Positions 5,391 through 33,971 of a stretch of 34,688 nt of DNA are shown one piece after another. Under the pieces are notes generated by a model. It was not told the origin of the DNA and made no database searches. It worked only from the letters and a program-made list of their open reading frames with translations. Source of the DNA: a virus. The stretch covers positions 1-34,688 of IMG/VR virus record IMGVR_UViG_3300036826_000134; one strand, written 5' to 3'. The position numbers and the translations under genes were made by a program. The number at the start of each line of letters is the position of its first letter. Position 1 is the stretch's first letter.

Positions 5391-5402
5391 GCTCAACGCA
5401 CT
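5391..5402 (-). promoter_or_regulatory. late-block element GTGCGTTGAGC (copy 1)
   Basis: On the leftward strand AGTGCGTTGAGC reads toward the holin-candidate gene. It contains the stop codon of the polyvalent protein gene (GTG CGT TGA). Seventeen bp downstream is TAACAC, a possible -10, if TTGAGC acts as -35. The distance to the next ATG is 31 nt, the same as for copy 2. Confidence 0.6.
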
Positions 5403-8400
5403 CCATTTGCGCGCTCCAGGCGCTGCCTCTGCTCCGGCGTCGCGTAGAGATAGAAATCGCGCAGCGTGCGACCCGAGAGCCTGGTCGCCGGATTGAGCCC
5501 GGTGCGGATGTAGAATTTCTGCAGCCCCGGCGGGATGCCCAGCTCGGTCATGCGCTCGCTGGCGCCGGCGATGTCGCCCCGCTGTATCTGCTTCCTGATG
5601 TCGGGCAACGCCATGTCGACCCGGTACTGATGCTGCGTCCGCGCAGCGTACAGCTCGCCCACCGCCGGGCCGCCGGGCGCGCCCTTGCTGAAAGTGACGC
5701 CGGCCATCGGCCCGAGCACTTGCAGCGCCGGGAGCGTGTATTCGCCCCCGCTGATGATGTCCTTGGCGAGTTCGCCTACCGGCCGCCGCGGGGCGCCTGG
5801 CTGGCCGCCGAGCGCGTGGGTGACCATCTCGGCGCCGGCGGCGATCGGGCCGACCGGGAATTGCGCCTCGACCAGGTGCGCCGCGATCAACCCCATGTTC
5901 CGCAGATACTTCTCCGGCGCGTCGGCGCCTGGATCATAAATCTTGCGACCGAAGCCGCGATCGTTCGCCATGATCTGCCAGGCCGGCCGGGCGATCGTGC
6001 CGAGCTTGCGGTGGATCATGTCGAGTGGCCCGGTCATCCAGCCGATGAACTCCTCGCCGATCTTGCCGGCCGGGTTGCGCGCGTAGATTGCGGTGCCGTC
6101 CTTGAGGTAGCCGACCCGGATGCGGTCCCGCCGTCCCGGCTCGTTCTCGTAGGTCGAGCTGACGTGCTCCATGAAGTCGAGCGGCTGCAGGAGCTTCATC
6201 GGATTTTCCTGCCGCTCGGCGAACGCCTCTTTGGCGCGTTGCGCATAGCCGCGCATCTCATCATCGAGCGTGCGGTCGGTGGACAGTACGTTGATCGCGC
6301 TCTGCAGGATCGAGTTGCCGATATACATGAGCCCCATGTCGGCCATCACGACGGCAACGGCTTTCCGCACGGCCAGGTTTCGGATGTAGCCCTTCGCCTT
6401 CGGATCGAGCGAGCCCACGTCGCGCTCGATTTGTGCCATCACGTCGCGCGGCAGGCCGGTGAGCATGTCTTTCATCACGCCGATATTGCCGAGCGTGAAC
6501 GAGCGCGAGAACAGCAACAGATTGGCGGTCTTGCGCGCCGCCTCCGACATGGCCTCGACCGGCAGCGCGCCGGCGTAGCGGTTAGCCCAGTGCGCCGCGG
6601 CGCGAGCGGCGGTTTGCTGATCCACCCCTTTCTGCACGAGGTTGTCGCGGAAATTGGTGTAGAGCCCCATCTGCAGATCGCCGATGCGATCCCAGAGCAG
6701 CGTGTTGTGCCAGAAGTCGCCCATCCTATCGATGCCGGCCTTGACCGCGGTCCCGGCCCGCTCATCGAACAGCCCCGGCACGGAGCCCAGCACCTTGGCG
6801 GTCCAGGACCGGCCCGGCGTCAGATCGGGCGCCTCGGCGATCGACGTGATGTCCTGGTTGAAGAAGCGGTTCCCGATCGGCACCAGACCGGCGTCGATCG
6901 CCTCGCGCATGATGGCGGGATTGTTCTTCGCCCGATTGCCGTCGAAGTAGACCCGGAAGGTGAGCACCTTGCCCGGCATCGCCGGCAGCGCGCGGCCCCA
7001 CTCCACCGCGTTGTGAATGATCGGCGAATACATGATGATGCTCATGCTCTTGCCTTTGAGGCTCATCAGCGCGCCGTAAATCCTATTGTTGTTCTGCGCC
7101 AGCACCGCCCGGAGCGGCCCCTCAAAATCGCGATGCACGTAGAGCGGCACCCGCTCGAAAATGATGTTGCCTTCCTTGTCGGTCGCCGCGCGCATGGTGC
7201 CCCCAAGCGGCCCCGGCTCCTCCATCTTCTCTAGCTTTGGTCGCCAGGTCTGAAACGCCGGATGGTCGAGGGTGAACCAGCCAGGGCCGGGCTTGCTGCC
7301 TTCGCTCACCGTGTCCTGGCCGGTACGCTGACCGTATTCCTTGATGTTGTTGATGAGCATGCGGCCGGCAATCGCATCCTCCAGCCTGGCGGTCGCGAGC
7401 GGCAGCACCCGGATGTCGCGCACGAGCTCGGCCGCCTCGCCACCTCTTGCCTTGGCGGCGGCCTCGGTTTCCTCCGCGGTCAGGTATTTGCGGCCGCGCA
7501 GGAACGGCGTGCTTACCCGCAGGTTGCGGCCGATGGAGTTGAGCGGCATGCTTCCGCCCTCGCCGAAGGCCATGTTGACTATCGCGCGCGGGGTGTAGGC
7601 GGGGAGCCCTTCGCCCTCGACCATGCCGAGATCGCGCGCCTTTACCCAGGCCCCTTGCGCGCGTCCCTGCTCGCTCTCGACCAGGGCGCGTTGCTCGGGA
7701 GTGAGCATCTGCAGGCCGCGCTGGGCGAGCTGCATGTGCTCCGGGGTGACGCCGAGCTGCCGGCCGACGCTTTCCTGGTCGGCTGCATCCCACATCGCCT
7801 TGCGGATAGCGCGCGGGAACCGTCTGACGATGTCGCTGTCGATCCGCATCCATTCCCAGCGGTTGCGGCGCAATGCGTTGGCGAAGTCCTTGGCCGCGGC
7901 CCTGGCCCAGCTGTTGAGCCTGCCGCCGACGGCCATCGGCGTTGCGAGCATCTGAATGTCGCGGCCGATGTCGAGGAGCTGCTCACCCGCATTGGTGATT
8001 GCCGCCACGATCCGGCCAGGCGGCGGAGCGGGTTGCTGGAACAGGCTCGGCTGCGCCGGGCTCGGGCTCACCGCGGCGCCGAGCGGGAACAGGGTCGGCT
8101 CCTCGGGTTCCGGCGCGGCGAACATGCCGCCCGGTTCTTCCTGCGGGACCTTGGCGCGCAGGGTCTCGCCGCGGGCCGCCGCCGCCTGCCTGGCGCTGCG
8201 CTCGGCGCCCGGCAGCACAAACTGCGCGCCCTTGCCGCGGGCGAGCTGCACCTCCTCGGTGGCGGCGGCGCCGAGCGCGTGCGGCTGGATCAGATCGGAG
8301 ATTTGCTCGGCCGCGATCGCGGCGGCCTGCGGGCTCTCTAGCTCTGCTGCCTTGTCGAGCGTAGCTGTGCGAGCTTCATCGCCAACATGTAGCGGGCCTC

Positions 8401-11400
8401 GCTCGACACGGCTTGCGATACGAACGAGTTGATCCTCCTCCAGGAGTGATCGGAGATGCCCGACGAAGTCTCGGACGGCTGGTCCGAGCTTGCCGGTGTC
8501 CCTGACGGCTCGGGCGGCGGTGCCGAGAGCGTCGGAGATTGGTCCTGCGCGGTTGGCGAGGACCTGGAGGAGCTGGATCGCCTGGGCATCGGCTGCGGCT
8601 CGCTTCTCGTTGACGGTCGCGGCCAGGCGATTGCCGGCCGCCTCGATTTCGGTCTGCTCCTTGGTGAGCACGGAGAAAACCGCCTTATCCTTCTTTATCT
8701 CCTTGAGCGCCCGGTCAAGCACTTTCGCCCGCTCGACGTAGAGGCTCTCGGCCACCTCTTCCTCGCCGAACAGCCCCGCCTGGGCGCCGGCCTGGCGCTT
8801 GGCAACCCCGGCCTCGATCCCCTGGCGGACGATCGCCTCGGCCTGGATCGCATTGGCGGGGTCGGTCCTGGCGAGCAGCGTGAGCATCGCCGACTGCAGC
8901 TCGGGGTCGGCGGGGACCAGGCGACCGACGACCGCGGCATAGTGCGGCGGCACCACGCCGTTGATCACCATGCCGAAAGCATCGGGGGACAGGTTGGTGA
9001 GGTCCCGCGCCTGGCGGTAAAGCTCGGACCTGGGCGGCAGCTCGGCGGCCCGCTCGGGGTTGTCGCGCAGCACCTTGGCGGCATCAACCGCGGTGCCGGT
9101 CCCCTCGGCGATGTTGCGCAGCGCGGCGGTGACCCGCGCCTCGGCGTCGGTGACGCCTTCGGCCTCGCACAGCACCCGTGCCAGGAGCTGCGGCTGCTGG
9201 CTCGGATCGGCCGCCTCGATGCGCCTGGCGAGACCGAGCCGCTGATGCCCGTCGATGATGAAATTCTTGCCGGTCTTGTCCTGCCAAACGAGGACCATGC
9301 CGGCCTTCACCGGGTCCCAGCGGGTGACGCCTTTCAGGCGCTCGGTGACCCCCGCCTCGTCGCTGTCCGCCTTGAATTGGAACCGCTTGGCGTCGACCGT
9401 CAGCTCATCGGGGCGGAACGCGGCAACGCTGTTGGGAAGGGGATTGCCGGCTACGAGAGGCCGGACTTCCGCCTGCGTTCCTCGTACTCCGAGCCTTGCC
9501 GCCGGCCCCTCTCCTCCTCCTCTTCCCAGTTGTAGAACGCGGGCGAGGTCGGTTTCGGCTCCGTCTTTGGCGTAGGCGGTTCCTCTGGGACCGTTGGCGT
9601 CGATTTCGAGGGTTTCATGGAATGCCCCTTCTCCTTTGAATATATGGTAATTTCTCTCCGGTTTGCTATCGACCCATTCGAGGAATTCCCTGGAGATCAA
9701 ACGTCCGGTGTCCATGAACCGGCTGATCATCCGCCGATACGCCTCGGCAGGATCGATGCTCATGTTGACCAGGTTCACCTCATAGCCGCGATTTTGCAGT
9801 TGTGCGACCATGTCGTGAATTTGACCGAGCTTGCCGCCGACCTTGGGCAGGACGAGGTTCGTGCCCTGGGCAATCTCCCGCTCCAGGGTTGCTTGCGCGA
9901 GCTTGGTGCTTTCGATGTGGGTAGCTACCGCTCCGGCGCCGCCATCGTATTCCGGCAAGATCATCTTGGCGTCGTCGGCATCGTTGATCGCCATCCGTAG
10001 TCGGGTGGCAAGCGTCTCGGCAAAGTGTGATTTGCCTGCGGCCGGCGGACCGATGACGATGACCGCCCGGCGATCCTGGCCCACCGGCTTGTCCTTGGAA
10101 TACGACCGACCCTTGGCAATGAGCCAGTTGATCGCCGCCTCGTAACCGCGTGCCGGCTTGCCGTCGAGATTGAACTCCCGCGCCGCCTCGAACTCCGGCG
10201 TGCCGTAACCGGGCAGGCTCTCGGTTTTGGGGCGGCTTTCGACGTCAGCATTGGCGCGCTTGATGGAGGCGTGGCTCTCGATCTCCTCCGCGGGCGCCTT
10301 GCGCTCGATCATCGCCCGCAGATCGGCTTCCTCGGCCTCGGTGGCATAGCGGCGGATGATCGTGGTGTTGCCGGTAGCCTTGGCCGCGGTCTCGGCGGCC
10401 TTTACCTGGTCGGCCTCGACCGATGCCTTCGCCACGCCGGCGGGGATGCCGGTGGTGCTGCCGAACGGCTCGAACAGTGTGGGCGGCGCCTCGACCCCCA
10501 GTCGCCGGAGCTCGCCGGCGATGAGCTGCTCGGAGAGGATCGCGCGCGCCTGGGCAACCTCGGAGGGGGTCGGCTTGGCCTCGGCGAACGCCTCATGCGC
10601 GGCGGCCGACGGCTGATCGTGAGGATAGGGACGCGGGTAGAGATTGGGCGGCAGATTTTCCGCCTTCTCCTTCTGGATCGCTTCCATGTAGGGTTGGTAA
10701 GCGGCCTCGGCCTTCGCCTGGTCGATGCCATGCGACTTGTACCATTGCCCCTCGGCCTTCTCGGCAAATTCCCAATGCGCGATCTTGTAGGCGAGCGCGT
10801 CGTCCATGCCGCCCCGGCGCAGCATCTCCATGACGTGATGCTCCAGGTTCTCGTGGATAGCGAACGGATCGGCCGGATCGAAAGTGACGCCGTCGATGGT
10901 AAATGAGCGGGGGAAATGCCGGTCGATGAAAATGGTCGGGTCCTCCAGCGGGACCGAGCCGCCGGCGGTGTAGGGCACGTCGAAGTCGCGATTGACCGTC
11001 GGGTTGTCGATGACCTGCCGCGTCGGCGCGCTGTCGAGGATGGCGTTCAAGTGATCGTCGCCGGGAACGCGGGCAAGCTCGGCGCGCGGCGTGCCGATCG
11101 GCACGGGTGAGCTTGTCGCCGGCGGAATGTTTGAGGTGTCGCGCGGCTCGGGGTCAAGCTCGTGCAGGAGCTTGCGCAGGAAGGCGTCGCGCTGCGCGTC
11201 GTGGACCGCCTCGGCCGGGTGAATGCCGTCCTCCTCCCACATCCGGCGCAGGTTCGTGTAGATCGATTTCCTGATTATTTCCGAGGGTGCGCCGTCGGGT
11301 GGCAGATGCAGGGCCTCGGCGGCGGCCCTGAAATCCGCCTCCTTGGGCAGGGTGCCGATCGTCTGGTCGGACATCTTCCCGCTCGCCGGGTCGTGACCGA

Positions 11401-11971
11401 GGCGGCCAAACGCCTTGTCGCCGCGCATCAGCTCGTACTGCAGGAAGTTGACCACCTCCTTTTGCACCGCCTTCGGCTCGGCCAGGCCAGTCTCCTCGGC
11501 CGCGGCCCCGGCCATCGCGCCCAACCCGTAGATGCCGGCATTGACCGAGCGGAGGATCGCATCGCCGAGCACGGAGGCGGGCTGCATGATCGCCTCATTC
11601 GCCAGGCGCAGCATCCCGCCGCGCCCGGTAACCGGGTCGCGATAGATGCCGACTTGCTGCAGTTGCTGAATGTGCTCATCGGAGAAGCCCAGGCGATCCT
11701 CGCCGAACCCTTGCTTGAGCGCCTCGACGAAGCCGGCGCCCTGCGCCCGCCTGCGCGCCTCGGTCTGCACCGCGGTCGCATCCTCGATCTGTTGCTGGAC
11801 CTGCATGCGCCGGCGAAATCGGTCCATGAAGGACGGTGGAATGTTGCTCTGCGGCGGCCCGAATGGATCGCCGTCAACCGGAGTGAGCGTCGGCTCCGGT
11901 GGCGGCGCCGGCGGTGCCGCTGCCTTGGGCTCGAATGGGTTGCCCTCGATGGGGATGAAATCGACCGCCAT
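5393..11971 (-). CDS. giant polyvalent internal virion protein with zeta-like P-loop kinase and ParB-like domains, 2192 aa
   Basis: Largest gene of the window, in the position of the T7 gp16-like internal core protein. Two related short motifs occur at the N-terminus (PIEGNPFEPK and PVDGDPFGPP). Residues about 340-440 hold an HENLEHH-containing helical domain of the kind associated with large polyvalent phage proteins. Residues about 635-800 form a zeta-toxin-like P-loop kinase domain with Walker A GPPAAGKS (641-648). Residues about 848-960 are ParB/Srx-like, with IIDGHQRLGLARR. Residues from about 1320 to the end are long and mostly helical, without a motif I can name. I saw no convincing transglycosylase triad. 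By analogy with polyvalent proteins it is probably packaged and delivered to the host with DNA; its substrates are unknown. It starts directly after the previous stop (TGA then ATG). Confidence 0.85.
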   Translation of the reverse strand: MAVDFIPIEGNPFEPKAAAPPAPPPEPTLTPVDGDPFGPPQSNIPPSFMDRFRRRMQVQQQIEDATAVQTEARRRAQGAGFVEALKQGFGEDRLGFSDEHIQQLQQVGIYRDPVTGRGGMLRLANEAIMQPASVLGDAILRSVNAGIYGLGAMAGAAAEETGLAEPKAVQKEVVNFLQYELMRGDKAFGRLGHDPASGKMSDQTIGTLPKEADFRAAAEALHLPPDGAPSEIIRKSIYTNLRRMWEEDGIHPAEAVHDAQRDAFLRKLLHELDPEPRDTSNIPPATSSPVPIGTPRAELARVPGDDHLNAILDSAPTRQVIDNPTVNRDFDVPYTAGGSVPLEDPTIFIDRHFPRSFTIDGVTFDPADPFAIHENLEHHVMEMLRRGGMDDALAYKIAHWEFAEKAEGQWYKSHGIDQAKAEAAYQPYMEAIQKEKAENLPPNLYPRPYPHDQPSAAAHEAFAEAKPTPSEVAQARAILSEQLIAGELRRLGVEAPPTLFEPFGSTTGIPAGVAKASVEADQVKAAETAAKATGNTTIIRRYATEAEEADLRAMIERKAPAEEIESHASIKRANADVESRPKTESLPGYGTPEFEAAREFNLDGKPARGYEAAINWLIAKGRSYSKDKPVGQDRRAVIVIGPPAAGKSHFAETLATRLRMAINDADDAKMILPEYDGGAGAVATHIESTKLAQATLEREIAQGTNLVLPKVGGKLGQIHDMVAQLQNRGYEVNLVNMSIDPAEAYRRMISRFMDTGRLISREFLEWVDSKPERNYHIFKGEGAFHETLEIDANGPRGTAYAKDGAETDLARVLQLGRGGGEGPAARLGVRGTQAEVRPLVAGNPLPNSVAAFRPDELTVDAKRFQFKADSDEAGVTERLKGVTRWDPVKAGMVLVWQDKTGKNFIIDGHQRLGLARRIEAADPSQQPQLLARVLCEAEGVTDAEARVTAALRNIAEGTGTAVDAAKVLRDNPERAAELPPRSELYRQARDLTNLSPDAFGMVINGVVPPHYAAVVGRLVPADPELQSAMLTLLARTDPANAIQAEAIVRQGIEAGVAKRQAGAQAGLFGEEEVAESLYVERAKVLDRALKEIKKDKAVFSVLTKEQTEIEAAGNRLAATVNEKRAAADAQAIQLLQVLANRAGPISDALGTAARAVRDTGKLGPAVRDFVGHLRSLLEEDQLVRIASRVERGPLHVGDEARTATLDKAAELESPQAAAIAAEQISDLIQPHALGAAATEEVQLARGKGAQFVLPGAERSARQAAAARGETLRAKVPQEEPGGMFAAPEPEEPTLFPLGAAVSPSPAQPSLFQQPAPPPGRIVAAITNAGEQLLDIGRDIQMLATPMAVGGRLNSWARAAAKDFANALRRNRWEWMRIDSDIVRRFPRAIRKAMWDAADQESVGRQLGVTPEHMQLAQRGLQMLTPEQRALVESEQGRAQGAWVKARDLGMVEGEGLPAYTPRAIVNMAFGEGGSMPLNSIGRNLRVSTPFLRGRKYLTAEETEAAAKARGGEAAELVRDIRVLPLATARLEDAIAGRMLINNIKEYGQRTGQDTVSEGSKPGPGWFTLDHPAFQTWRPKLEKMEEPGPLGGTMRAATDKEGNIIFERVPLYVHRDFEGPLRAVLAQNNNRIYGALMSLKGKSMSIIMYSPIIHNAVEWGRALPAMPGKVLTFRVYFDGNRAKNNPAIMREAIDAGLVPIGNRFFNQDITSIAEAPDLTPGRSWTAKVLGSVPGLFDERAGTAVKAGIDRMGDFWHNTLLWDRIGDLQMGLYTNFRDNLVQKGVDQQTAARAAAHWANRYAGALPVEAMSEAARKTANLLLFSRSFTLGNIGVMKDMLTGLPRDVMAQIERDVGSLDPKAKGYIRNLAVRKAVAVVMADMGLMYIGNSILQSAINVLSTDRTLDDEMRGYAQRAKEAFAERQENPMKLLQPLDFMEHVSSTYENEPGRRDRIRVGYLKDGTAIYARNPAGKIGEEFIGWMTGPLDMIHRKLGTIARPAWQIMANDRGFGRKIYDPGADAPEKYLRNMGLIAAHLVEAQFPVGPIAAGAEMVTHALGGQPGAPRRPVGELAKDIISGGEYTLPALQVLGPMAGVTFSKGAPGGPAVGELYAARTQHQYRVDMALPDIRKQIQRGDIAGASERMTELGIPPGLQKFYIRTGLNPATRLSGRTLRDFYLYATPEQRQRLERANGVR

Positions 11972-17444: not shown

Positions 17445-19124
17445 TCAAATCCGGCATGCGATGTAATCATCGAGCGGCTCCTCGGTGGGGCCGGTCTCGA
17501 TGCCGTTGACGATGCGCGCCTCGCCCATGAAACGCTCGTAGAGCTTGCCGATGTCGGCGAGCTTGGCGGAGGACTGGGTCAGCACCTGGCAGCTTTCCAG
17601 CGCGATCCGGGCGCCGAGCCCCTCGCAAAACATGTCGTTCATGCGGGCGACGTCGGTGAAGTCGGCGACGAAGCGATAGACGATCGGCAGGACGTCGCGC
17701 GAGCGGATGAAATCGTTCTCGTATTCCCAGTCGGTGTAATAGAGGTGGCCCGGCGTGCCGAGTGAGGAGCTGGACCCGGCGCGACTGTCCTGCGGCGCCT
17801 CGCGCAGGTAGTTCGCCGGCAGACGGAAGATGTTGCGGGTCGAGAGCTGCTGGGTCGGCCCGGTATTGATCGGATAGATGATGTCGAGCTTTTTCAGCGC
17901 GACCCCGGCGGGGAAGCTCGCCCCGCCGATCTGCGTCCACTGGCTGTTGCCGCCGCCCTGCACGAAGGTCGTGACCCAGGGATCGAGCACGCCGGTATTC
18001 TGCCAGAAGGTCGGGGCGGCGCCGTTGGCGGGGTTGTGGTTGAGGTTGCCGTTCTGCAGCGATTTGTAGATCAGACCATCGGTGGCCGCGACCAGCGCGT
18101 TGATCGCGTAGGTGGTCGCCGAGGACCAGGCCGGCGGGTTGACGGTCGCGCTGGTCGGGTCATTGCCGAAATTGAGGTCGATCGCGCTCATGTAGAGCGT
18201 GCCGCCGGTGGTGACCGCCCACACCCCGTTGAGATCGGGGAAATTGCCGGTGTTGAACGGGGTCAGCGAGACGTAGACCAGGCCGTTGAACAGCACGAAG
18301 TCGCCGAGCGCATAGCTCTCGGTCTGCGACCATTCGGTGATTGCGGTCTGCGACGGCGGCTGCACGACCGAGGTGATCGGCACCGCCTGGGTCTCCAGCG
18401 TCAAGGTCGGCATCGGCGCCCATTGGAAGAACGACAGGTTCGGGGGGTTGCCGAGATTGGCATTGACCAGCGAGGAGTAGATCAGGCCGTCGGTATAGGC
18501 GACCGTCTGCCCGACGGTGTAAGTGGTGCCGCTCGACCAGGCGGGAAACGCCTGCACCACATCGTTCTTGAAATAGGTGGTGTAGGTACTCCACTGATTG
18601 GGGAGCGCCGGATGCACCGCGTTGGCGTTCACCTTGGACAGATAAATGTTGGCGGTGCCGTCGCCGGCGGCGGTGTAGACCACCTCGCCGGAATAGTAGG
18701 TCTGGCTGCTGTCGTAGAGCGCGACGGTGAGCGGCCCGTAATAGGGCTCCCAGGCAAAATCGGTCGCGGCGATGCCGGTGGCGTTGCCTGGCTGGTTGCC
18801 GAGGTTGTTCTGGACACGGCTGATCCAGAGATAGCCGTCGGTGTCGGCGACGATCGAGCCCACGAAATAGGTGGCTCCCGACTGCCAGGCGGTCGGCGAG
18901 AGGAGCAGCGTGTTGGTGTCGATCGCGCGCAGGATCGCGGTGCGGGTGGCGAATTTCCAGATGTTGCGCTGCAGCTCGGCGCGTCGGAGCTTGGGATAGT
19001 TCACCCCGATGTGCTGGGCGGCGCGGCTGACCTCGGCGAAGCCCTGCGCGGTCGAGATCAGGTCGACGCCGACGTGCTGGCAGGCCCGGTTCGCGATGTC
19101 GAGCGGATTGAGAAACTGCCCCAT
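17445..19124 (-). CDS. tail tubular protein A interrupted by five carbohydrate-binding-like modules, 559 aa
   Basis: Would form the ring joining portal and nozzle. The family signature is split: residues 1-75 carry the start (FLNPLDIANRACQHVG, RRAELQRNIWKFATR), and residues about 425-559 the end (FRLPANYLREAPQD, YTDWEYENDFIRS, VYRFVADFTDV). Between them lie five repeats of 35-65 residues opening near W80, Y137, W196, W265 and W333, each with the pattern Trp-S-x-x-Tyr-x-x-G-x-x-Val followed by DG-x-x-Y-x-S and N-x-G-N-x-P. This resembles chitin-binding (CBM5/12-like) modules. T7 gp11 is under 200 residues, so the insert is most of the protein. A copy of GTGCGTTGAGC lies 31 nt upstream of the start. 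Confidence 0.87.
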   Translation of the reverse strand: MGQFLNPLDIANRACQHVGVDLISTAQGFAEVSRAAQHIGVNYPKLRRAELQRNIWKFATRTAILRAIDTNTLLLSPTAWQSGATYFVGSIVADTDGYLWISRVQNNLGNQPGNATGIAATDFAWEPYYGPLTVALYDSSQTYYSGEVVYTAAGDGTANIYLSKVNANAVHPALPNQWSTYTTYFKNDVVQAFPAWSSGTTYTVGQTVAYTDGLIYSSLVNANLGNPPNLSFFQWAPMPTLTLETQAVPITSVVQPPSQTAITEWSQTESYALGDFVLFNGLVYVSLTPFNTGNFPDLNGVWAVTTGGTLYMSAIDLNFGNDPTSATVNPPAWSSATTYAINALVAATDGLIYKSLQNGNLNHNPANGAAPTFWQNTGVLDPWVTTFVQGGGNSQWTQIGGASFPAGVALKKLDIIYPINTGPTQQLSTRNIFRLPANYLREAPQDSRAGSSSSLGTPGHLYYTDWEYENDFIRSRDVLPIVYRFVADFTDVARMNDMFCEGLGARIALESCQVLTQSSAKLADIGKLYERFMGEARIVNGIETGPTEEPLDDYIACRI

Positions 19125-19136
19125 GATGACGCAAGC

Positions 19137-19154
19137 ATCGGCATATTCGCCGAT
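19137..19154 (-). other. hairpin between late element and tail tubular A start
   Basis: ATCGGC (19137-19142) and GCCGAT (19149-19154) form a 6-bp stem with a 6-nt loop, between the late element and the ATG at 19124. With no T-run it is not a classical terminator. It could shape the 5' leader of tail tubular A. Confidence 0.4.
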
Positions 19155-19155: not shown

Positions 19156-19167
19156 GCTCAACGCACT
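19156..19167 (-). promoter_or_regulatory. late-block element GTGCGTTGAGC (copy 2)
   Basis: AGTGCGTTGAGC on the leftward strand begins at the TAG stop of the repeat-protein gene and points to tail tubular A. The gap to ATG 19124 is 31 nt. No good -10 box is found 16-18 bp downstream of TTGAGC, which argues against a plain host promoter at this copy. Confidence 0.6.
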
Positions 19168-24606: not shown

Positions 24607-25527
24607 CTACGGGGTCACATCGGACGCGGCCGAGGTGTCGGCGCACAGCACCTGCAGGAGCCGGCCGGGCTCCAGCCGGGTCGCCCCCGACGACATGCGG
24701 GTGTAGAGCTGGTAGGGCAGCGAGGAGAGGTCCTTGCGCTGGGTGACGTCGTTGTAGGTATCCTCCCAAATTCCGAGATAGATACCGTCCGGGACCCACA
24801 CGATGTTCTGCCGCTGGCTCGACGTCGAGGTGAGGCGCTCGCTGTAGATGATGTCGAAGCCCATGAACCTCGTCACTTTGCCGTCCATCAACGTGGCGCG
24901 GTCGCCGGCAAAATCGGTCGACACGACCTGGACCTGGTTGAGCAGATCGCTTTCGCCCTGGCTGTTGGTGATCCAGGTGAGCGCCAGGTCGTCGACCGGG
25001 ACCTGGGCCTTGCGGAAGATGCGCTTGGCCTCGATCATCTTCGCCACGGTCAAGCCGGTGTTGCCGGAGGCGGCGAAGTTGACGGCGACCTGGTAGAGCG
25101 CGGTGTTGAAGGTTTCCGACGACAGTCCGCCGGCGTCCTGGCCGATCTGCGCGGTGGCGAATGCGGCCCCGATCAAGCGGTCGTCCCACTCGCGGGCGAC
25201 GGCGGCGGCGGCGACGCTCGAATACTGCGCGGTCGGGTCCATGAGCAGCTTCAATTTGTCGAAGCTGTCGATCAGCTGTTGGGCCTCTTTGTCTACGGGA
25301 AAGACCCACCTTCTCGTGAAGTCAACGTCTTGGCGCTCGATCGGTGCGAACTTGCCGGCCGGCGCGCGCATCTGGATCGCGCCGATGTATTGCACCGGGC
25401 TTGCCTGCTTGCCGTAGTGCTGCCCCTCATGGCAGCGCCCGCGCAATTTCGAGCGTTCCTGTTGCAGCTTGAGCTTCAAGATCGCCGAGAATTGCGTGAC
25501 GAACAATTTGAACAAATTCTCGCTCAT
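24607..25527 (-). CDS. major capsid protein, 306 aa
   Basis: Coat protein that would assemble the icosahedral head. The 306-residue sequence, beginning MSENLFKLFVTQFSAILKLK, has the look of podoviral capsid proteins: an ERQDVDFTRRWVFPVDKEAQQLIDSF segment, then long Ala-rich helices (AKMIEAKRIFRKAQVP) and VTRFMGFDIIYSERL in the second half. I selected ATG 25527; the open frame extends to 25602 but the extra residues are arginine-rich and unlike a capsid start. It lies downstream of scaffold and portal, the usual order. The start codon lacks a strong ribosome-binding site, and the leader is unusually long (see 25528-25740). Confidence 0.85.
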   Translation of the reverse strand: MSENLFKLFVTQFSAILKLKLQQERSKLRGRCHEGQHYGKQASPVQYIGAIQMRAPAGKFAPIERQDVDFTRRWVFPVDKEAQQLIDSFDKLKLLMDPTAQYSSVAAAAVAREWDDRLIGAAFATAQIGQDAGGLSSETFNTALYQVAVNFAASGNTGLTVAKMIEAKRIFRKAQVPVDDLALTWITNSQGESDLLNQVQVVSTDFAGDRATLMDGKVTRFMGFDIIYSERLTSTSSQRQNIVWVPDGIYLGIWEDTYNDVTQRKDLSSLPYQLYTRMSSGATRLEPGRLLQVLCADTSAASDVTP

Positions 25528-25740
25528 GGCAGGCGTCCCGTGTGAGTTGGACCGAGCGCGGACGCGAGCTGCGCCGCACGAGCTTTCGGCCTTGCCCCTC
25601 ACGGGGGACCGTCATGTGCTGAAAATGTCGCCTTGCCCGCCTTGCCAGCGCGGCGGGGGCGTCACTGCCTCGACGCGGCTTGTCCCGAAGGGGCCGCTAC
25701 TCCGAGGGAATGCGCGCGATTATCGCCGGCACGCGCGAGT
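25528..25740 (-). promoter_or_regulatory. long structured leader of the capsid gene
   Basis: A non-coding stretch of 213 nt before the capsid ATG. It contains GC hairpins: CCCGCC (25636-25641)/GGCGGG (25652-25657), and CCCC (25595-25598)/GGGG (25603-25606) with a 4-nt loop. At its far end a late element supplies TTGAGC, and 16 bp later GATAAT (complement of 25719-25724) is a good -10 candidate. I infer a dedicated capsid promoter and a structured, possibly stabilising, 5' untranslated region. Confidence 0.5.
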
Positions 25741-25752
25741 GCTCAACGCACT
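25741..25752 (-). promoter_or_regulatory. late-block element GTGCGTTGAGC (copy 3)
   Basis: AGTGCGTTGAGC on the leftward strand follows the stop codon of the small gene upstream (TGAGTGCGTTGAGC). It points to the capsid gene 214 nt away. This copy has the best -10 candidate of the seven (GATAAT after 16 bp). Confidence 0.62.
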
Positions 25753-26476: not shown

Positions 26477-26484
26477 CGTTCACC

Positions 26485-27648: not shown

Positions 27649-29421
27649 CTATCCCTGCGGGAATGCCGGCTGCGGGCCGCCGAGGCCGGCGGTGCCAAGC
27701 CCCGGCTGGTTCTTCGCCACCGCGGCCTGCGCTTTCAGCATTGCCGCCTGCGCCGGCATCGCCTGTATCTGCGCCTGCTGCTGCTGGCTCTGCGCCCGCG
27801 CCTGGCGCTTCCTGGCGATCGCCTCGGGGTCGGCCATCCACCGCTCCGGGACCGCCTGTATCTGCGCAATCTCGGGGATTGCGGTATCGAAATCGAACGG
27901 GTCGAGGTAGGACGGGTCCTGGGTGATGTTGACGATCTCCTTCGCCGTCTCCACGGTGCGGACGAAGCCCGCGGCCATGCCGGCGCGCTGCGAGAGCGCG
28001 AGCGGGCTCGTGTAGATCACCTGGTACTCGCCTCTTGCCTCGCGCAGGCGCGGCGGCATCGGCGGCAGCAAGCCAAGGCGCATCAGCACATCAAGCTCCC
28101 GATCGATCATCGGGCCGAGCTTCTCGGTCTCCTGGCGGCCGAGCGTGGGCGCCACCAGGATGCCCTTCTCGTTGACGAGCTCGATCACCTGGGTCGCGGT
28201 CATGTTGGGATGCTCGGAGAGCACCTTGAACAGCGAGACCAGGAACATGTCATCGATGATGGCGCGCTCCTCGGCCATCATCTCCTTGCTGATCTCGATC
28301 TTGCCGGTGGGCAGGACATGCACGAGCGGCCGGCCGTCGGGGTTGACCCCACCCTTGTTGACTGCGCCCGGCCGGTTCTTGAAGTCGGTGAGCCCGTCGT
28401 CGGCGGTGATCAGGACCGGGTCGGAAGCCTTGTGCCCCTGTTTCAGGAAGGTCGCTTTCTGCGCGTTGAGTGTTTTCAGCGCCGGCAGCACCTGCTGCGC
28501 GGGGCCGCGTCCGTAGACCTCCAGCGGCGCCTGGTCGTAGCGGCTGACCGCGTAGGGAAAGACGTTGAAGCCGCCTTCCTCCTGCATCAGGCATTGCCCC
28601 TCGATCGCGACGTAGAACGAGGAGAACGGCATGCTCCGCACATCGAGCCGCTGCGGGTCGTAGTTGTCGCGCGGCTTGACGACGTGCAGGAAGTTGTAGG
28701 GCCACTGGCTCGACTGGATCAGCGGGGCGTGCAGGTTGGCCGGGAGGCGCTCCATCCCCCACCGCTGCGCCGCCTGTGCCGCGGTCATGCGGAACCAGCG
28801 GGTGATGCGGTCGACCTGGCCCTGATGGTTCTCGCCGTAGAAGGTCTCGCCCAGCGGGCAGGCGCGATAGCGCAGGCCGCGCAGGCCGTGATGGGTGCGG
28901 CCGTCGAAAGCGTCGATGAACAGCGTCGAGTTGCCGTAGCAGCCGAGGCTCCTCCAGCTCTTGTAATTCTCGCCGCGGAAGTTGGCGGTCGGGGCGCGGC
29001 GGTGCTTGAACAGGAGCTTGGTGACCAGGTCGAACCACATCCGGGTCGCCCGATCCTTCATCACGTAATCGTCGGAAGCCTCCAGCGAGTGCCACTGGCT
29101 GTTGGCCGGCGTGAGCAGGCTGTCGCAGATCGCGGCGAAGCGGTGCAGCGCGAGCATCCCGGTGGCGTCGATCTGCTGCTGGGTCTTCTTCTGCCCCTGC
29201 CAGTAGAAATTCTGGTAGAAGAAGGTGTTCCGGCTGGCGACGTCGATGAGCGAAGCGACCTCCTCCCATTGCGAGGCGAAGGTGTTGCGCCAGGAGTAGA
29301 GCTGGGCGAACTCGCGCAGCAATTCGCCGACCAGGTTTCTTTCCCAGTCGGGAACGATGCGGCCGCCGGCGGCGATCGCCAGCGGGGCGGCGCGCTCACT
29401 GACGGCTACGGCGGCGGCCAT
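27649..29421 (-). CDS. portal (head-to-tail connecting) protein, 590 aa
   Basis: A 590-residue protein of the podoviral head-to-tail connector family, which forms the dodecameric ring through which DNA is packaged and ejected. Typical features are the YSWRNTFASQWEEVASLIDV segment near residue 42, LALHRFAAICDSLLTPANSQWHSL (about 90-113), the TMFIDAF-like NSTLFIDAFDG and YRACPLGETFY segments, and the long helical second half ending in a Gln-rich tail (ARAQSQQQQAQIQAMPAQA). GGAG precedes the ATG by about 8 nt. It follows the small head-gene pair and precedes the Bbp19-like gene, as in BPP-1-like phages. Confidence 0.92.
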   Translation of the reverse strand: MAAAVAVSERAAPLAIAAGGRIVPDWERNLVGELLREFAQLYSWRNTFASQWEEVASLIDVASRNTFFYQNFYWQGQKKTQQQIDATGMLALHRFAAICDSLLTPANSQWHSLEASDDYVMKDRATRMWFDLVTKLLFKHRRAPTANFRGENYKSWRSLGCYGNSTLFIDAFDGRTHHGLRGLRYRACPLGETFYGENHQGQVDRITRWFRMTAAQAAQRWGMERLPANLHAPLIQSSQWPYNFLHVVKPRDNYDPQRLDVRSMPFSSFYVAIEGQCLMQEEGGFNVFPYAVSRYDQAPLEVYGRGPAQQVLPALKTLNAQKATFLKQGHKASDPVLITADDGLTDFKNRPGAVNKGGVNPDGRPLVHVLPTGKIEISKEMMAEERAIIDDMFLVSLFKVLSEHPNMTATQVIELVNEKGILVAPTLGRQETEKLGPMIDRELDVLMRLGLLPPMPPRLREARGEYQVIYTSPLALSQRAGMAAGFVRTVETAKEIVNITQDPSYLDPFDFDTAIPEIAQIQAVPERWMADPEAIARKRQARAQSQQQQAQIQAMPAQAAMLKAQAAVAKNQPGLGTAGLGGPQPAFPQG

Positions 29422-29454: not shown

Positions 29455-29928
29455 TCATTGCACCAGGCGGCGGGCATCGGGGTCTCGCGGGTCAAAGGTC
29501 GGATCGAGCCGGCGATCGGCGACTACCCAGGCGCGTACCGCCTCGAACATCTGCGTGCGCTCGGCGTCATCGAGGCGCAGCTCATCGGCGAGCTTGCGGA
29601 ACACCGCCTGCATCTGCTCGGTCGAGCGGAACACGACCATGTCGCGGACGTGGCGCTGATGCTTGTCGACGATGTCGGCGACGACGGCGCCGGAGTGGCT
29701 GATCTTGGCGGCGCTGCAGAGGAACGGCGGGGTGATCGAGCGGAAGCCGGGGAAGGTGACCGCGAGCAGCGTGGGCATGTGCTCATCGAAGGAATGGGCG
29801 AGCACCGAGAGCACGACGATGGAGAGGGGCGAGCGGCGCAGATGGCGCAGCGCGCGCGACGGCCAGGTGTCGCGCAGCTCATCGGCATGCCGCCTGGACG
29901 AGAGCTTGATGATTTCAGCGTCCGCCAC
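29455..29928 (-). CDS. hypothetical protein upstream of portal, 157 aa
   Basis: I chose GTG 29928 because GGAGG precedes it and the longer open frame up to 30216 covers another gene in a different frame. The 157-residue product begins VADAEIIKLSSRRHADELR, is helical and charged, and has a hydrophobic stretch (PLSIVVLSVLAHSF) too short to call a membrane span. The C-terminus is rich in Asp and Arg (DPTFDPRDPDARR). It overlaps the small gene upstream by 14 nt and lies 33 nt from the portal start. Family not recognised. Confidence 0.65.
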   Translation of the reverse strand: MADAEIIKLSSRRHADELRDTWPSRALRHLRRSPLSIVVLSVLAHSFDEHMPTLLAVTFPGFRSITPPFLCSAAKISHSGAVVADIVDKHQRHVRDMVVFRSTEQMQAVFRKLADELRLDDAERTQMFEAVRAWVVADRRLDPTFDPRDPDARRLVQ

Positions 29929-30139
29929 CCGCGCCTCCGAGCGCGGTCGACACCGGGCCGAGCCCGGCATTGACGCCGAACATCGAGGAGACCGGCTGCA
30001 TGATCGCGCGCGCCTGAATGCGCTGCAGGCGCTTGCGGCGCTCCTCATCGGTCTCCTGCGCCTGGTTGCGCAGCATGTCGCCGCCGAAGCCGCCGTCGTT
30101 GCCGATGCCGGCAAGCCCGAATGGATTGGTCTGCGGCAT
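29915..30139 (-). CDS. small Gly-rich protein, 74 aa
   Basis: A 74-residue protein (start MPQTNPFGLAGIGNDGGFGG) with a Gly-rich N-terminus, a charged helix (QETDEERRKRLQRIQARA) and a Gly-rich end. It is the first gene of this section of the late block, after the divergent regulatory region at 30140-30318. Similar short proteins are found just before portal genes in related podoviruses, but no function is established. ATG 30139 is the first good start; the longer frame to 30253 crosses the operator region. Confidence 0.68.
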   Translation of the reverse strand: MPQTNPFGLAGIGNDGGFGGDMLRNQAQETDEERRKRLQRIQARAIMQPVSSMFGVNAGLGPVSTALGGAGGGR

Positions 30140-30210
30140 GGCATGTGTCCGCGAAAGCGGGGACGCGATCGGGCTAGACGACCGCGCCCCCAGGTGAGAA
30201 CAACAACACA

Positions 30211-30222
30211 GCTCAACGCGGC
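30211..30222 (-). promoter_or_regulatory. late-block element CGCGTTGAGC (copy 4, diverged)
   Basis: Leftward sequence GCCGCGTTGAGC; it differs from the other copies in the first three bases of the core. It lies 37 bp from copy 5 and 72 nt from the ATG at 30139. The pair flanks a perfect palindrome. Confidence 0.5.
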
Positions 30223-30225
30223 GCA

Positions 30226-30243
30226 GGATGTGTGAACACATCC
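30226..30243. promoter_or_regulatory. perfect palindrome GGATGTGT-GA-ACACATCC, probable operator
   Basis: Eight-bp arms separated by 2 bp, in the gap between divergent genes. A perfect 18-bp symmetry in non-coding DNA between two late elements is the form expected of a repressor or activator site. Which protein binds is unknown. Confidence 0.65.
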
Positions 30244-30247
30244 AGCG

Positions 30248-30259
30248 GCTCAACGCACC
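30248..30259 (-). promoter_or_regulatory. late-block element GTGCGTTGAGC (copy 5)
   Basis: Leftward GGTGCGTTGAGC, pointing to the head-tail genes that begin at 30139 (109 nt). It adjoins the palindrome at 30226-30243. Confidence 0.6.
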
Positions 30260-30267
30260 GTGATGCG

Positions 30268-30284
30268 CTGGACATTTAGTCCAG
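30268..30284. promoter_or_regulatory. inverted repeat CTGGAC-N5-GTCCAG upstream of rightward gene pair
   Basis: Six-bp arms, 5-bp AT-rich centre (ATTTA). It resembles TGGAC-N5-GTCTA at 2904-2918, upstream of the other rightward single-gene unit. It is probably an operator or promoter element of the gene at 30319; no convincing -10 box was found. Confidence 0.5.
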
Positions 30285-30318
30285 AATGTTCCAGGCTGCC
30301 TCGGGTGAGGGGCACACC

Positions 30319-30528
30319 ATGAAGCTGAAACTGATCACCCGTCCTGGCTTCGACTGGCGCAAGGTCGCCTGGGGCAGACCCGACGCGCGGGTGCGCGAGC
30401 TCTGCGCCTATTGTCATGGCGCGCTGCCCAGGGTTCCGCTGATGCTTTGGAAGGACGATGGCAGCGCCGCTTCATTCTGCGACGATTGTGTTGAGCGGTG
30501 GTGGACGACGGACGCAGGGAGCGCGTGA
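30319..30528 (+). CDS. small zinc-finger-like protein, 69 aa
   Basis: Rightward gene inside the leftward late block. ATG 30319 follows GTGAGGGGC at good spacing. The 69-residue basic protein has CAYC and CDDC pairs about 27 residues apart (ELCAYCHGALPR then FCDDCVERWW), a zinc-ribbon-like layout. Its last base is the first base of the next start, so the two zinc proteins form a coupled pair. The reverse orientation and own regulatory region suggest expression outside the late programme, for example in early infection or in lysogens. Function unknown. Confidence 0.78.
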   Translation: MKLKLITRPGFDWRKVAWGRPDARVRELCAYCHGALPRVPLMLWKDDGSAASFCDDCVERWWTTDAGSA

Positions 30529-30746
30529 TGGGCTACATGTTTGCCACAGGCCCCTGCATCTGCTGCCTGCGCGTATTCTCCTACAACCCGACGCGGGTGC
30601 CGAGCACCTCGGCGATCACCGGCGAGCGCGAGCCGATCTGCAGCGACTGCATCGAGCGGATCAACAAGAAGCGGCTCGCACTCGGGGCCGAGCCGATCGT
30701 GCCGCTGCCTGGAGCCTACGAGCCATGCGAGGAGAGCGAGCTATGA
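30528..30746 (+). CDS. small zinc-finger-like protein, 72 aa
   Basis: Second gene of the rightward pair, starting at ATG 30528 with AGGGAG upstream and overlapping the previous TGA by one base. It has CICC near the start and CSDC about 27 residues later (PICSDCIERINKKR), then an acidic Pro-rich tail ending CEESEL. The spacing resembles its neighbour, so they may be paralogues. Its last 86 nt overlap, tail to tail, the end of the leftward sigma-domain gene. Function unknown. Confidence 0.75.
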   Translation: MGYMFATGPCICCLRVFSYNPTRVPSTSAITGEREPICSDCIERINKKRLALGAEPIVPLPGAYEPCEESEL

Positions 30747-30999
30747 ATGGGTCCAGCCTGCCCAGCCGGCGCCGGAGCGTGCGCAACCCCTTGGTCTCGA
30801 TACTGTGCACCACCTGGCGGTGGCGACCGATGATGTCGCCGATCGCCTGCAGGGTCTTGCAGTCGTCATCGAGCCCGAAACGCCAGCGGATGACGTCGCG
30901 CGTGCGTTCCGGCAGCTCGCCTATCGCCCCATGCAGGAGCGCGATGCGCTCCTTGTCCAGGAGCAGGCTCTCGGGCGTCGGCTGCAGATCAAGCAGCAT
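30661..30999 (-). CDS. stand-alone sigma-70 region 4 (-35-binding) domain protein, 112 aa
   Basis: Residues about 19-80 (IALLHGAIGELPERTRDVIRWRFGLDDD, then TLQAIGDIIGRHRQVVHSIETKGLRTLRRRL) match sigma-70 region 4: LPER, RFGL and the terminal HTH are all present. Regions 1-3 are absent, so it cannot act as a complete sigma factor. Compared with E. coli sigma-70 the recognition helix keeps Arg584 (R61) but has Gln for Glu585, Val for Arg586, His for Arg588 and Ser for Gln589. It starts 2 nt after the terminase large stop, so it is co-translated. The last 30 residues lie opposite the rightward zinc-finger gene and are Arg-rich. It may redirect host polymerase to late promoters or occlude -35 elements; this is inference. 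Confidence 0.82.
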   Translation of the reverse strand: MLLDLQPTPESLLLDKERIALLHGAIGELPERTRDVIRWRFGLDDDCKTLQAIGDIIGRHRQVVHSIETKGLRTLRRRLGRLDPFIARSPRMARRLQAAARSARPRVRAASC

Positions 31000-31001
31000 T
31001 T

Positions 31002-32480
31002 TCAGGCTAGGGCTTCAATCGGCTCCCCGGTGAAGATGTCCCAGTCGTCGGAGGTCTCGCGCTCCGGCGGCTTCTTCCCCGCCACGAACCCTAGCGGCAC
31101 GAGCCGCGCGAACCGCTTGTCCATCAGCGCAATGCGCGTCGCGCTCATCAGGTCGTCGCGCTGCTTCACCACCTGCCCGTTCTTCCGGTGATAGAGCCTT
31201 CGCTCCTCCAGCCAGTCGCTTAACTGCGCCGCGACCTTGAGCCGCCCGGTCTTTTCCCGCTCATCCCATTCGAGCAGCCCGGCCTCGGTCGACAATGAGC
31301 CGTCCGGCCAGCTCGCATGCCTGGGCAGCATCTTCAAACCCTCGCGCCGGTAGAGCGCAGCCACCGGCTCGCCGGTCCCATGATCTCTGTCGCCGGCATC
31401 CTTCGGCCAGGCCACCGGCACCTCGGCGCCGATCGGCTTCATCCGCGCCACATGCATGATCGGGATTGCATCGCTCATCCGAAACGCATGGTGCACATGC
31501 ACCACATCGTTGTCCTTGTCCCATAAAATGAGCACCGCGGCGAACGGGTGGCCGATGCCGATGTCGATGCCCCACAGCTTGGGCCAGTAGCTCGGGATGT
31601 GCATCAGCGGCGGCTCGATGATCGCCGCCTCCGGGGTCTGGAAAATCCGCCCGCTGCCCAGCATCGGCACGCCGCGGGCACGCGCCTCGCGCTCGTGCGG
31701 CAGGTAGCCGGCGAGCATCTTCTCCTTCGCCGCCTTCGACAGATGCCCGCCCTCGGGCACGTCGTCCATCGTCATCGTCACCATGCCGCGGTGATCGTTC
31801 GCCTCCTGCATGTAGCGCAGCACCACCGCGGTCGGCCCCTCCAGCGGCGTGAAGGTCAGCATCGCCAACCCGTCGCGATCGCCCAGACGCGTCAATCCCT
31901 CCGCATAGATGTCGAGCGGCGGCTCCTCATCGAACCACACCACGTCGAGACTCTCGCCCTGAAACTTCTGCCGCCCCTGCTCGTAGCTCTTGAAGCGGAT
32001 GATCGACACCCCGCCCGACTGATGCTTGACCTGCACCGTGTCATAAGCGTCGGTGATGCCTCGCGCGAGCGACTTGTCGATCAGGTCCTCGCGCGGCAGC
32101 ATCCCCGCGCCCCACGCCTCCGCCACCCCCGGCTCGCCGCAGAGCTTGGTCTGCGCCACGTCGCGAACCTCCAGCGAGGTCGGCCCCGCAACCCACACCT
32201 TCACCGGCTGCTCGAACCGCCGACCCTGCCACCACGGCGGATAACGCCCGGTCGCATGACACGCCACCTCGAACGCCCCGCACTCGGTCTTGCCCAGCCG
32301 GTTGCCGGCCATCAGCAACCGCTCGCGCTTGCTCGCCCCAAGCTCAAGAAACTCCCGCTGCCGCGGATACGGCGCAAAATACGCCCAGCGGAAAAACCGC
32401 TTGCGCTTGTCAACCCACGCGAGAACCTCGCGCCGCTCACTCGCCGTCAGCGGCTTCGCTTCTTCCTGCTGCTCGCTCAA
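31002..32480 (-). CDS. terL: terminase large subunit (ATPase and nuclease)
   Basis: Motor protein that packages DNA through the portal and cuts concatemers. With numbering from TTG 32480 it has about 492 residues. Visible motifs are Walker A MAGNRLGKT (about 58-66), Walker B LDVVWFDEEP (about 177-186), and an RNase H-like nuclease start WGIDIGIGHPFAAVLILWD (about 304-322). No ATG fits. TTG 32480 follows GGGGGAGG closely and gives MSEQQEEAKPL; TTG 32495 is the longer alternative. It overlaps the small-subunit gene by 44 nt and is followed by the sigma-domain gene. Confidence 0.93.
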   Translation of the reverse strand: MSEQQEEAKPLTASERREVLAWVDKRKRFFRWAYFAPYPRQREFLELGASKRERLLMAGNRLGKTECGAFEVACHATGRYPPWWQGRRFEQPVKVWVAGPTSLEVRDVAQTKLCGEPGVAEAWGAGMLPREDLIDKSLARGITDAYDTVQVKHQSGGVSIIRFKSYEQGRQKFQGESLDVVWFDEEPPLDIYAEGLTRLGDRDGLAMLTFTPLEGPTAVVLRYMQEANDHRGMVTMTMDDVPEGGHLSKAAKEKMLAGYLPHEREARARGVPMLGSGRIFQTPEAAIIEPPLMHIPSYWPKLWGIDIGIGHPFAAVLILWDKDNDVVHVHHAFRMSDAIPIMHVARMKPIGAEVPVAWPKDAGDRDHGTGEPVAALYRREGLKMLPRHASWPDGSLSTEAGLLEWDEREKTGRLKVAAQLSDWLEERRLYHRKNGQVVKQRDDLMSATRIALMDKRFARLVPLGFVAGKKPPERETSDDWDIFTGEPIEALA

Positions 32481-32952
32481 CAACCTCCCCCTCAATCACA
32501 TTCCCCCCAATCAGCCTCGCCTCATCAACCCCAAGCTGCCCAGCCATCCGCCGCGCAAGCTCCTCCAGGCTCCGCATGTCCGCAACATGCTCAACCGTCA
32601 CCTTGTGCTCCGTCTTCGCCGAATGCCCGCTCCGGTCCAGCACCGTCTCAATCATCCGACCATGATACGGATGCCTCGGGTTCGCCAAAATGTTGCGCGC
32701 CGCGTCAATCGCCAACGGCGCCAGCCCACGCAAAAATTTCCGCGAACACTCCTCAACCGCCGCCAACACCTTCGGGTTCTGCATCAACAGGCAGCCCCGT
32801 ACCTTCGCCCCCTCCAAATGATCCGAATACCCAGCCTCTCGCGCCGCCGCACTCTGGTTCATCCCACTCGCAACCAACCACGCAAACCGCCGCCGCCGGT
32901 CATCCCCCAGCGCATCCATCGCAGGACCATAAACATCAGGAAAATCTTCCAT
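32437..32952 (-). CDS. terS: terminase small subunit, 171 aa
   Basis: DNA-recognition partner of the large subunit. The first 75 residues form a helix-turn-helix region (RRRRFAWLVASGMNQSAAAREAGYSD) followed by MQNPKVLAAVEE, as in small terminases. The C-terminal half is helical and acidic and would mediate oligomerisation and large-subunit contact. ATG 32952 is immediately preceded by AGGGAGG, closer than ideal spacing, and lies 29 nt downstream of a late element. The frame is open further upstream to 33201 but without a supported start. It overlaps the large-subunit gene, the usual arrangement. Confidence 0.85.
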   Translation of the reverse strand: MEDFPDVYGPAMDALGDDRRRRFAWLVASGMNQSAAAREAGYSDHLEGAKVRGCLLMQNPKVLAAVEECSRKFLRGLAPLAIDAARNILANPRHPYHGRMIETVLDRSGHSAKTEHKVTVEHVADMRSLEELARRMAGQLGVDEARLIGGNVIEGEVVERAAGRSEAADGE

Positions 32953-32981
32953 CCTCCCTATTTGTCTTAACCGCGTTATCA

Positions 32982-32993
32982 ACTCAACGCACA
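32982..32993 (-). promoter_or_regulatory. late-block element GTGCGTTGAGT (copy 6)
   Basis: Leftward TGTGCGTTGAGT, 29 nt before the terminase small-subunit ATG. The spacing is close to copies 1 and 2 (31 nt). No strong -10 box follows. Confidence 0.6.
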
Positions 32994-33426: not shown

Positions 33427-33455
33427 TTGCATCGTAGGCGTTCTGCTCCTATGTA
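33427..33455 (+). promoter_or_regulatory. promoter with TAGG-N9-CCTA operator (copy 4)
   Basis: The -35 is TTGCAT (33427-33432), the spacer 17 bp and the -10 TATGTA (33450-33455). Arms are TAGG (33435-33438) and CCTA (33448-33451), in the same register as copies 1-3 although over 30 kb away. It precedes the gene at 33482, which shares the ATAGGAGGGT ribosome-binding leader with the gene at 193. Confidence 0.68.
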
Positions 33456-33481
33456 TGTTTCGTCAACGATAGGAGGGTGCG

Positions 33482-33652
33482 ATGAGGAAGGTTCGGAACG
33501 TGTTGAAGGGGTGGGTGATGCGGCTTGTGGTTTGGCTGTTTGCCGACGCGGTTGCGGAGGCGGTTCGTGCGGCTGATGCGCGGGCTTGGGAGCGAGCGAA
33601 GGCTGGGCGACCGGGTGCGACGTACGACGCGACCGGGCTCGATGAGAAGTGA
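33482..33652 (+). CDS. small hypothetical protein, 56 aa
   Basis: A 56-residue product (start MRKVRNVLKGWVMRLVVWLF) from ATG 33482, with AGGAGG (33471-33476) upstream. Residues about 8-20 are hydrophobic between basic residues, which suggests membrane or amphipathic-helix character. The rest is Ala/Arg-rich and helical. It is controlled by operator copy 4 and followed 13 nt later by another small gene. Function unknown; a small regulator or membrane peptide are both possible. Confidence 0.68.
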   Translation: MRKVRNVLKGWVMRLVVWLFADAVAEAVRAADARAWERAKAGRPGATYDATGLDEK

Positions 33653-33665
33653 GGGGGAGGCGGAC

Positions 33666-33899
33666 ATGATCACAATTAGCACAATCCATCATCGGGGAAC
33701 GCGCCCCGCAGTAGACGTATTCGACGGCGGGCGCTTCATCGGTATCATCGAGCAATGGGTTAATGGAGCGTGGGCGATCCGCTATGCACGCCCACACGAA
33801 CGCTTTGCGTTTCCGAATGCCACGGAGCGCGGCTTCACAAGCCCGCATGATGCTGCACGTTTCATCGAACGCGAGGGGTATCTCTGGCCGCACGAGTAG
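33666..33899 (+). CDS. hypothetical protein, 77 aa
   Basis: I chose ATG 33666 because GAGGGGGAGG precedes it; the longer frame to 33525 covers the previous gene. The 77-residue product begins MITISTIHHRG and has a compact alpha/beta look (VDVFDGGRFIGIIEQWVNG, then SPHDAARFIEREGY). No motif recognised. It is co-transcribed with the gene at 33482 from a TAGG-N9-CCTA promoter and lies opposite to the late operon, so it is probably an early or lysogenic accessory gene. Confidence 0.75.
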   Translation: MITISTIHHRGTRPAVDVFDGGRFIGIIEQWVNGAWAIRYARPHERFAFPNATERGFTSPHDAARFIEREGYLWPHE

Positions 33900-33959
33900 C
33901 AGGACCGAGCAAACGGGGGTTGCGCGCGCGATGAAGAATGGTCGCGCGCGTAGTCGCAC

Positions 33960-33971
33960 ACTCAACGCACT
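33960..33971 (-). promoter_or_regulatory. late-block element GTGCGTTGAGT (copy 7)
   Basis: Leftward AGTGCGTTGAGT follows the TGA stop of the gene at 33971-34552 (TGAGTGCGTTGAG, as in copy 3). It points leftward through the rightward gene pair toward the terminase genes, so a transcript from it would be antisense to that pair. Confidence 0.58.

Follow-up and report, generated by a model that had tools for sequence, protein, structure and literature searches.

Probable extended -35 elements at the late promoters of a group of uncultured short-tailed phages

The repeats found at the late-gene borders of this viral record are probably the 8-bp extended -35 elements of sigma70-type late promoters, a family common to a large group of uncultured short-tailed phages. 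The window, by which we mean the whole stretch of 34,688 bp that was analysed, is a viral record with its structural genes on the - strand and its integrase on the + strand. In the mechanism that we propose, host RNA polymerase with a sigma70-type factor would read a weak -10 (CAnnTT in the family), placed 16-18 bp downstream of TTG, the last three bases of the conserved GTGCGTTG. A phage-encoded protein, most likely an XRE-fold helix-turn-helix (HTH) protein (33971-34552) that acts as an activator beside sigma region 4, would read GTGCG and the base triplet that follows GTTG. A separate promoter would serve each late block (terS-terL, portal, capsid, gp11/gp12-like tail genes and lysis), and messages would be leaderless where the start codon falls at +1 to +4, as predicted for terS, the gp11-like gene and about half of the remaining sites.

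Repeats at late-gene borders

GTGCGTTGAGY occurs in six exact copies in the window, all on the - (late) strand and none on the + strand. First-order Markov resampling gave an expectation of 0.007 copies on the - strand (mean; maximum 1 in 300), and the reversed control pattern had zero copies. Four copies (5391, 19156, 25741 and 30248) have the form GTGCGTTGAGC and two (32982 and 33960) the form GTGCGTTGAGT. All six mark gene borders, and four touch or immediately follow a stop codon: the copy at 5391 includes the stop codon of gene 5393-11971, that at 19156 overlaps the TAG of gene 19166-20188, and TGA stops immediately precede those at 25741 and 33960. An earlier, sequence-only reading of the window had claimed a single orientation, a position at gene borders and a copy number above chance, and all three claims held. 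It had listed seven copies, of which the six exact ones stand. The seventh, CCGCGTTGAGC (30211..30221, - strand), has two mismatches and was left out of the count because matches of this kind are at chance level (24 in the window versus 24.2 expected). The leading A of the 12-mer in its title was found in only four of the six copies.

From right to left, the copy at 33960..33970 (-) lies directly after the stop codon of the HTH gene; the next recognisable ORF is on the + strand, and the absence of an obvious gene ahead of this copy counts against our reading. A motif copy just after the HTH gene was also seen in several relatives (e.g. G042, G043 and G025), and a plausible small + strand ORF at 33650-33900 of the window faces this copy. 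The copy at 32982..32992 (-) would be the extended -35 of a promoter for terS (32437..32952, -), terL (31002..32468, -) and perhaps the sigma-4-like ORF after them, with a predicted +1 at 32952, the A of the terS ATG. The copy at 30248..30258 (-) would drive the gene at 29455 together with the portal block (portal/head-tail connector, 27649..29421, -). The gene just before the portal (29455-29961), which lies between terL and portal, encodes a conserved protein of about 157 aa in 36 records. Between the sigma-4-like ORF and the copy at 30248 we observed two small + strand ORFs with CxxC pairs (zinc-ribbon-like), at 30286-30528 and about 30541-30740. Further along, the copy at 25741..25751 (-) would serve the major capsid protein gene (24607..25527, -) with a leader of >120 nt, and that at 19156..19166 (-) the gp11-like tail gene (p559; 17445..19124, -). 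The copy at 5391..5401 (-) would serve the lysis genes downstream of it, which encode a small membrane protein (5102-5359) and an amidase (3542-5098). The left end of the record (1-110) carries a run of short GGCnnGGC-like repeats.

The motif was looked for at the same junctions of related phages and was found there. As relatives we took about 150 loci from portal and capsid searches of IMG/VR, which partly overlap; 40 records, the window included, were read whole or nearly so, and their motif copies were mapped against genes. In the about 150 related loci GTGCGTTG occurred 276 times on the late strand versus 27 times on the opposite strand, with 32 versus 34 for the reversed control, and the fully read genomes held 144 late-strand copies versus 18 on the other strand. 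A count per record gave 4-10 copies in each of about 25 genomes, with almost all copies of a genome on the same strand. The core GTGCGTTG, or GTACGTTG or GTGTGTTG, stands at shared late junctions in about 24-30 uncultured podovirus genomes. Copies recur upstream of terS and of the gp11-like gene (p559), by about 40 nt in each case, upstream of the capsid gene, immediately behind terL and behind the internal virion protein gene. In G007, G009, G040, G041 and G044, GTACGTTG or GTGTGTTG takes the place of GTGCGTTG at the same positions; G044 has GTACGTTG at all seven counted sites, and at the p559 junction GTGCGTTG is replaced by GTACGTTG or GTGTGTTG in several phages.

Comparison of the window with named phages gave no megablast match, and no enrichment of the motif was seen in Rhizobium phage RHph_Y25, podovirus ct8d5349 or BcepC6B. 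Scans of genome contigs with the capsid protein, aimed at a prophage or host, found no relative, and a literature search for the motif gave nothing relevant.

The -10 element and the start codons

Alignment of 201 motif contexts revealed RGTGCGTTG, a weaker CTGG and then C-A-n-n-T-T 17 bp after TTGnnn. Of 144 sites, 27% have A(-11) and T(-7) together at a spacer of 16 bp, 41% at 17 bp and 12% at 18 bp, and each of the remaining spacers between 8 and 31 bp gave 0-7%. Taken together, 78% of the 144 sites have both bases at 16-18 bp versus 8-13% at control spacers, which is the bipartite arrangement of sigma70-type promoters; spacers of 16-18 bp are those preferred by sigma70-family holoenzymes. 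On the upstream side GTGCG is conserved at -40 to -36 and joined to TTG, as for a class II-like protein site that adjoins or overlaps the -35. At capsid-gene sites the -10 is kept in 20 of 24 cases, though there is no start codon nearby, so the element belongs to the motif and not to the start codon. The 18 other-strand sites in the fully read genomes also have a CAnnTT-type element in 44% of cases, and some of them may be real promoters of that strand. Counting against our reading, CAnnTT is an unusual -10 for a primary sigma factor in GC-rich sequence.

The copies of the window itself are weaker, and only three of the six combine A(-11) with T(-7): that at 19156, with GATGCT (19134..19139, -; 16-bp spacer), that at 25741, with GATAAT (25719..25724, -; 16-bp spacer), and that at 30248, with the family-type CATCCT (30225..30230, -; 17-bp spacer). 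The copies at 5391 (TAACAC, 5368..5373, -) and 32982 (CAAATA, 32959..32964, -) have partial -10 elements at 17-bp spacers, with A(-11) only, and that at 33960 has neither base at an allowed spacer and no convincing -10. Of the two -10 boxes that had been proposed from the sequence, GATAAT is confirmed and TAACAC is reduced to a partial match; the copy at 19156, described as lacking a -10, has one.

We then considered start codons, taking every ATG that opens an ORF of >=40 codons and binning its distance from the first base of the motif in steps of 6 nt. An ATG lies at 38-43 nt in 45 of 47 terS and gp11-like (p559) sites and in 42 of 91 other sites, and neighbouring bins hold one at no more than 8 of the 91 other sites. 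This leaves about 28-31 nt between the end of the motif and the start codon. The three window copies that had been placed shortly before an ATG indeed have one 40-42 nt from their first G (42 nt at both 19156 and 5391, and within that range at 32982). The ATG falls on +1 or +2 in 25 of 32 cases, +1 being a predicted position, and nearly all starts are ATG. This phasing agrees with transcription beginning about 7 nt downstream of the -10. The Shine-Dalgarno (SD) match is 0-3 bases in 39 of 47 terS and gp11-like starts, and a clear SD is seen at the scaffold, p187 and p73 genes; the SD measure alone is not decisive, since terL and capsid genes also have a weak match. Start codons that coincide with the predicted +1 and have hardly any SD suggest leaderless late mRNAs, and on these sequence grounds we consider that leaderless initiation probably takes place at many of these promoters. 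This agrees with Sinorhizobium meliloti, in which every mapped leaderless message starts with AUG (PMC3616915).

The tight phasing of the motif to the ATG could alternatively reflect a signal acting in RNA: a translation-start element, as in the start-associated sequences of cluster K, a terminator or a processing hairpin. A GC-rich dyad around CAnnTT in many capsid-gene copies would fit a hairpin; it is centred on CAnnTT in capsid-gene promoters of relatives (e.g. G018 4990 and G019 7876), for example as GGCGCGG-CACGTT-CCGCGCC. However, roughly every second copy outside terS and the gp11-like gene lacks a start codon at that distance, as does every capsid-gene copy, and the capsid-gene copies keep CAnnTT all the same. 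Pairing of the dyad arms around the -10 was, as a class, no better than in arm-shuffled controls, and the hairpin was rejected as a candidate. We regard an RNA-level signal as extremely improbable.

The sequence-only reading had left two models standing, late promoters needing a phage factor and stoperator-like sites. The latter would be asymmetric sites for a phage repressor that keeps transcription from starting or elongating in lysogens. The example is cluster A mycobacteriophages, in which a monomeric repressor with two DNA-binding domains recognises an asymmetric site (PMC9283540). The motif sites are likewise asymmetric, intergenic and of a single orientation, and a two-domain HTH protein is encoded nearby. 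Elongation roadblocks are nevertheless not expected to show a -10 at 16-18 bp or start codons at 38-43 nt, the second element accompanies the motif also at sites that lack a nearby start codon, and the copies are confined to the heads of late genes at 4-10 per genome, which makes this model very unlikely. Of the other model the promoter half is borne out by the junctions in relatives, the -10 at 16-18 bp and the phasing of start codons, and the motif sites can be predicted with high confidence to be active promoters; the phage factor is suggested by the dialect described below. A repressor may in addition act at these late promoters. The spacer of the terS promoter holds the palindrome TAACGCGGTTA (32968..32978), its sole copy in the window, and TAAC-N1-4-GTTA was found in 17 of 21 terS promoters versus 1 of 141 others; as a rule a genome has a single copy. 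This palindrome could be a repressor operator or a packaging site.

A candidate reader of the motif

The three bases after GTTG vary between phages in a concerted way. Different junctions of one genome agreed at 1.94 of 3 bases versus 1.29 expected, and none of 1000 shuffles reached as high a value; as an example, most sites of the window read GTGCGTTGAGC and those of G013 GTGCGTTGCTG. Such concerted change suggests a trans-acting reader that differs between phages, to which host differences could contribute, and it is likely that this reader is encoded by the phage.

Alternatively, an unmodified host holoenzyme with a primary or RpoH-like sigma factor could suffice, the long -35 being simply a strong host site. 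The spacer distribution is that of sigma70-family factors, and RpoH -10 elements contain CATnT, similar to the -10 of this family. A -35 of 8-11 bp, however, is longer than region 4 of sigma normally requires, and the concerted change of the dialect within genomes, which includes GTACG and GTGTG variants, points to a fast-evolving phage reader, even if host differences could also cause it. We consider recognition by the host enzyme without a phage factor unlikely.

Our candidate for a phage-encoded reader is the 193-aa protein of 33971..34552 (-; cluster 34), which is encoded between terS and the right-hand end of the record and combines an XRE/lambda-repressor-like HTH with a basic helical C-terminus. 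Among 43 conserved protein clusters it is the only one present in 18 of 18 full motif-bearing genomes and 0 of 7 motif-less ones; the motif-less relatives are essentially one clade and one long branch, so the association amounts to about one evolutionary event. With relatedness removed, the divergence of the HTH protein correlated weakly with the motif dialect (partial Mantel test, partial r 0.14, p 0.07). The protein matched no Pfam, PHROG or NCBIfam family, the XRE family included, and nothing in named phages. Mean identity within the family is only about 25%, and scanning viral contigs gave few further members because the protein is too divergent. Its N-terminal half has an XRE/lambda-repressor-like fold in a high-confidence AlphaFold prediction; Foldseek matched it to HipB with a probability of 1.00 and a target TM-score of about 0.8, but with a weak E value (best 0.03). 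XRE-type proteins can activate transcription from a position adjacent to the -35.

A second protein of the window might read the extended -35 by replacing or displacing host sigma region 4. The 112-aa ORF directly after terL (30661..30999, -) consists of sigma-70 region 4 only (PF04545), with a Sigma70_r4 match of 2.9e-10, above the curated cut-off. It belongs to the unit for which the 32982 copy would be the promoter; TTGAG is part of the motif, and sigma recognises the -35 through its region 4. Against this, no homologue was detected in relatives that have the same motif at the same junctions, which rules the ORF out as a common reader, and the sole other region-4 match came from a record without the motif and without a recognisable portal relative. 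The protein could explain at most the window's own dialect, and we judge it quite improbable as the reader. In keeping with region 4 alone in the window, no Sigma70_r2 match was found in 19 records, in a search that detected its positive controls. T7-type RNA polymerase had no match in the same 19 records; that search was also without a match in any control genome, which makes its negative result weak.

Co-occurrence, fold and position make the XRE-fold HTH protein upstream of terS an even bet as the reader. Tentatively, and with somewhat less assurance, we suggest that it represents an undescribed family of late activators, with an XRE fold and a basic helical domain, that would read an asymmetric site fused to the -35, change together with its sites in each genome and drive conserved leaderless terS and tail mRNAs.

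Significance and comparison with known systems

These results make the late promoters of a large group of podoviruses known only from uncultured genomes readable as a code, with base-exact predictions of transcript starts in dozens of genomes, and they name a candidate regulator without a known family. The natural series of sites and readers offers material for testing how protein and promoter specificity co-evolve. Should the late mRNAs prove leaderless, this mode of initiation would be inherent in the strategy of a phage lineage and not an occasional exception. Transcript starts at the first base of the AUG are found in Sinorhizobium meliloti as well (PMC3616915), where they form a minority class of scattered host genes (171 TSS), whereas here the start is predicted and the trait is conserved in phage late units.

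Two kinds of phage repeat resemble the motif in being asymmetric and of one orientation. Cluster A stoperators (PMC9283540) are intergenic sites for a phage protein too, but they number >20 spread genome-wide, stop transcription and have no fixed -10, whereas here there are few copies, a -10 follows most of them, and many have a start codon at a fixed distance. The start-associated sequences of cluster K (PMC3203893) are repeats at gene starts, mostly ATG. They lie 3-7 bp before the start codon of non-structural genes, overlap the SD and contain AGGAG, whereas the motif lies about 30 nt from the starts of structural genes, which have little or no SD.

In the predicted HTH fold, the candidate reader is like the XRE/lambda-repressor-type activators lambda cI, ClgR and the C proteins of restriction systems. 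Those proteins bind palindromes as dimers and lack its basic helical C-terminus, and the site here is asymmetric. The nearest working analogue is the middle promoter of T4, with its MotA box and sigma appropriation (PMC2988021), where the site of a phage protein likewise overlaps the -35 and sigma70 reads the -10. In T4, however, the MotA box is centred at -30 and remodelling by AsiA is needed, whereas here the TTG is kept at -35, the genes are late ones and the candidate has an XRE fold.
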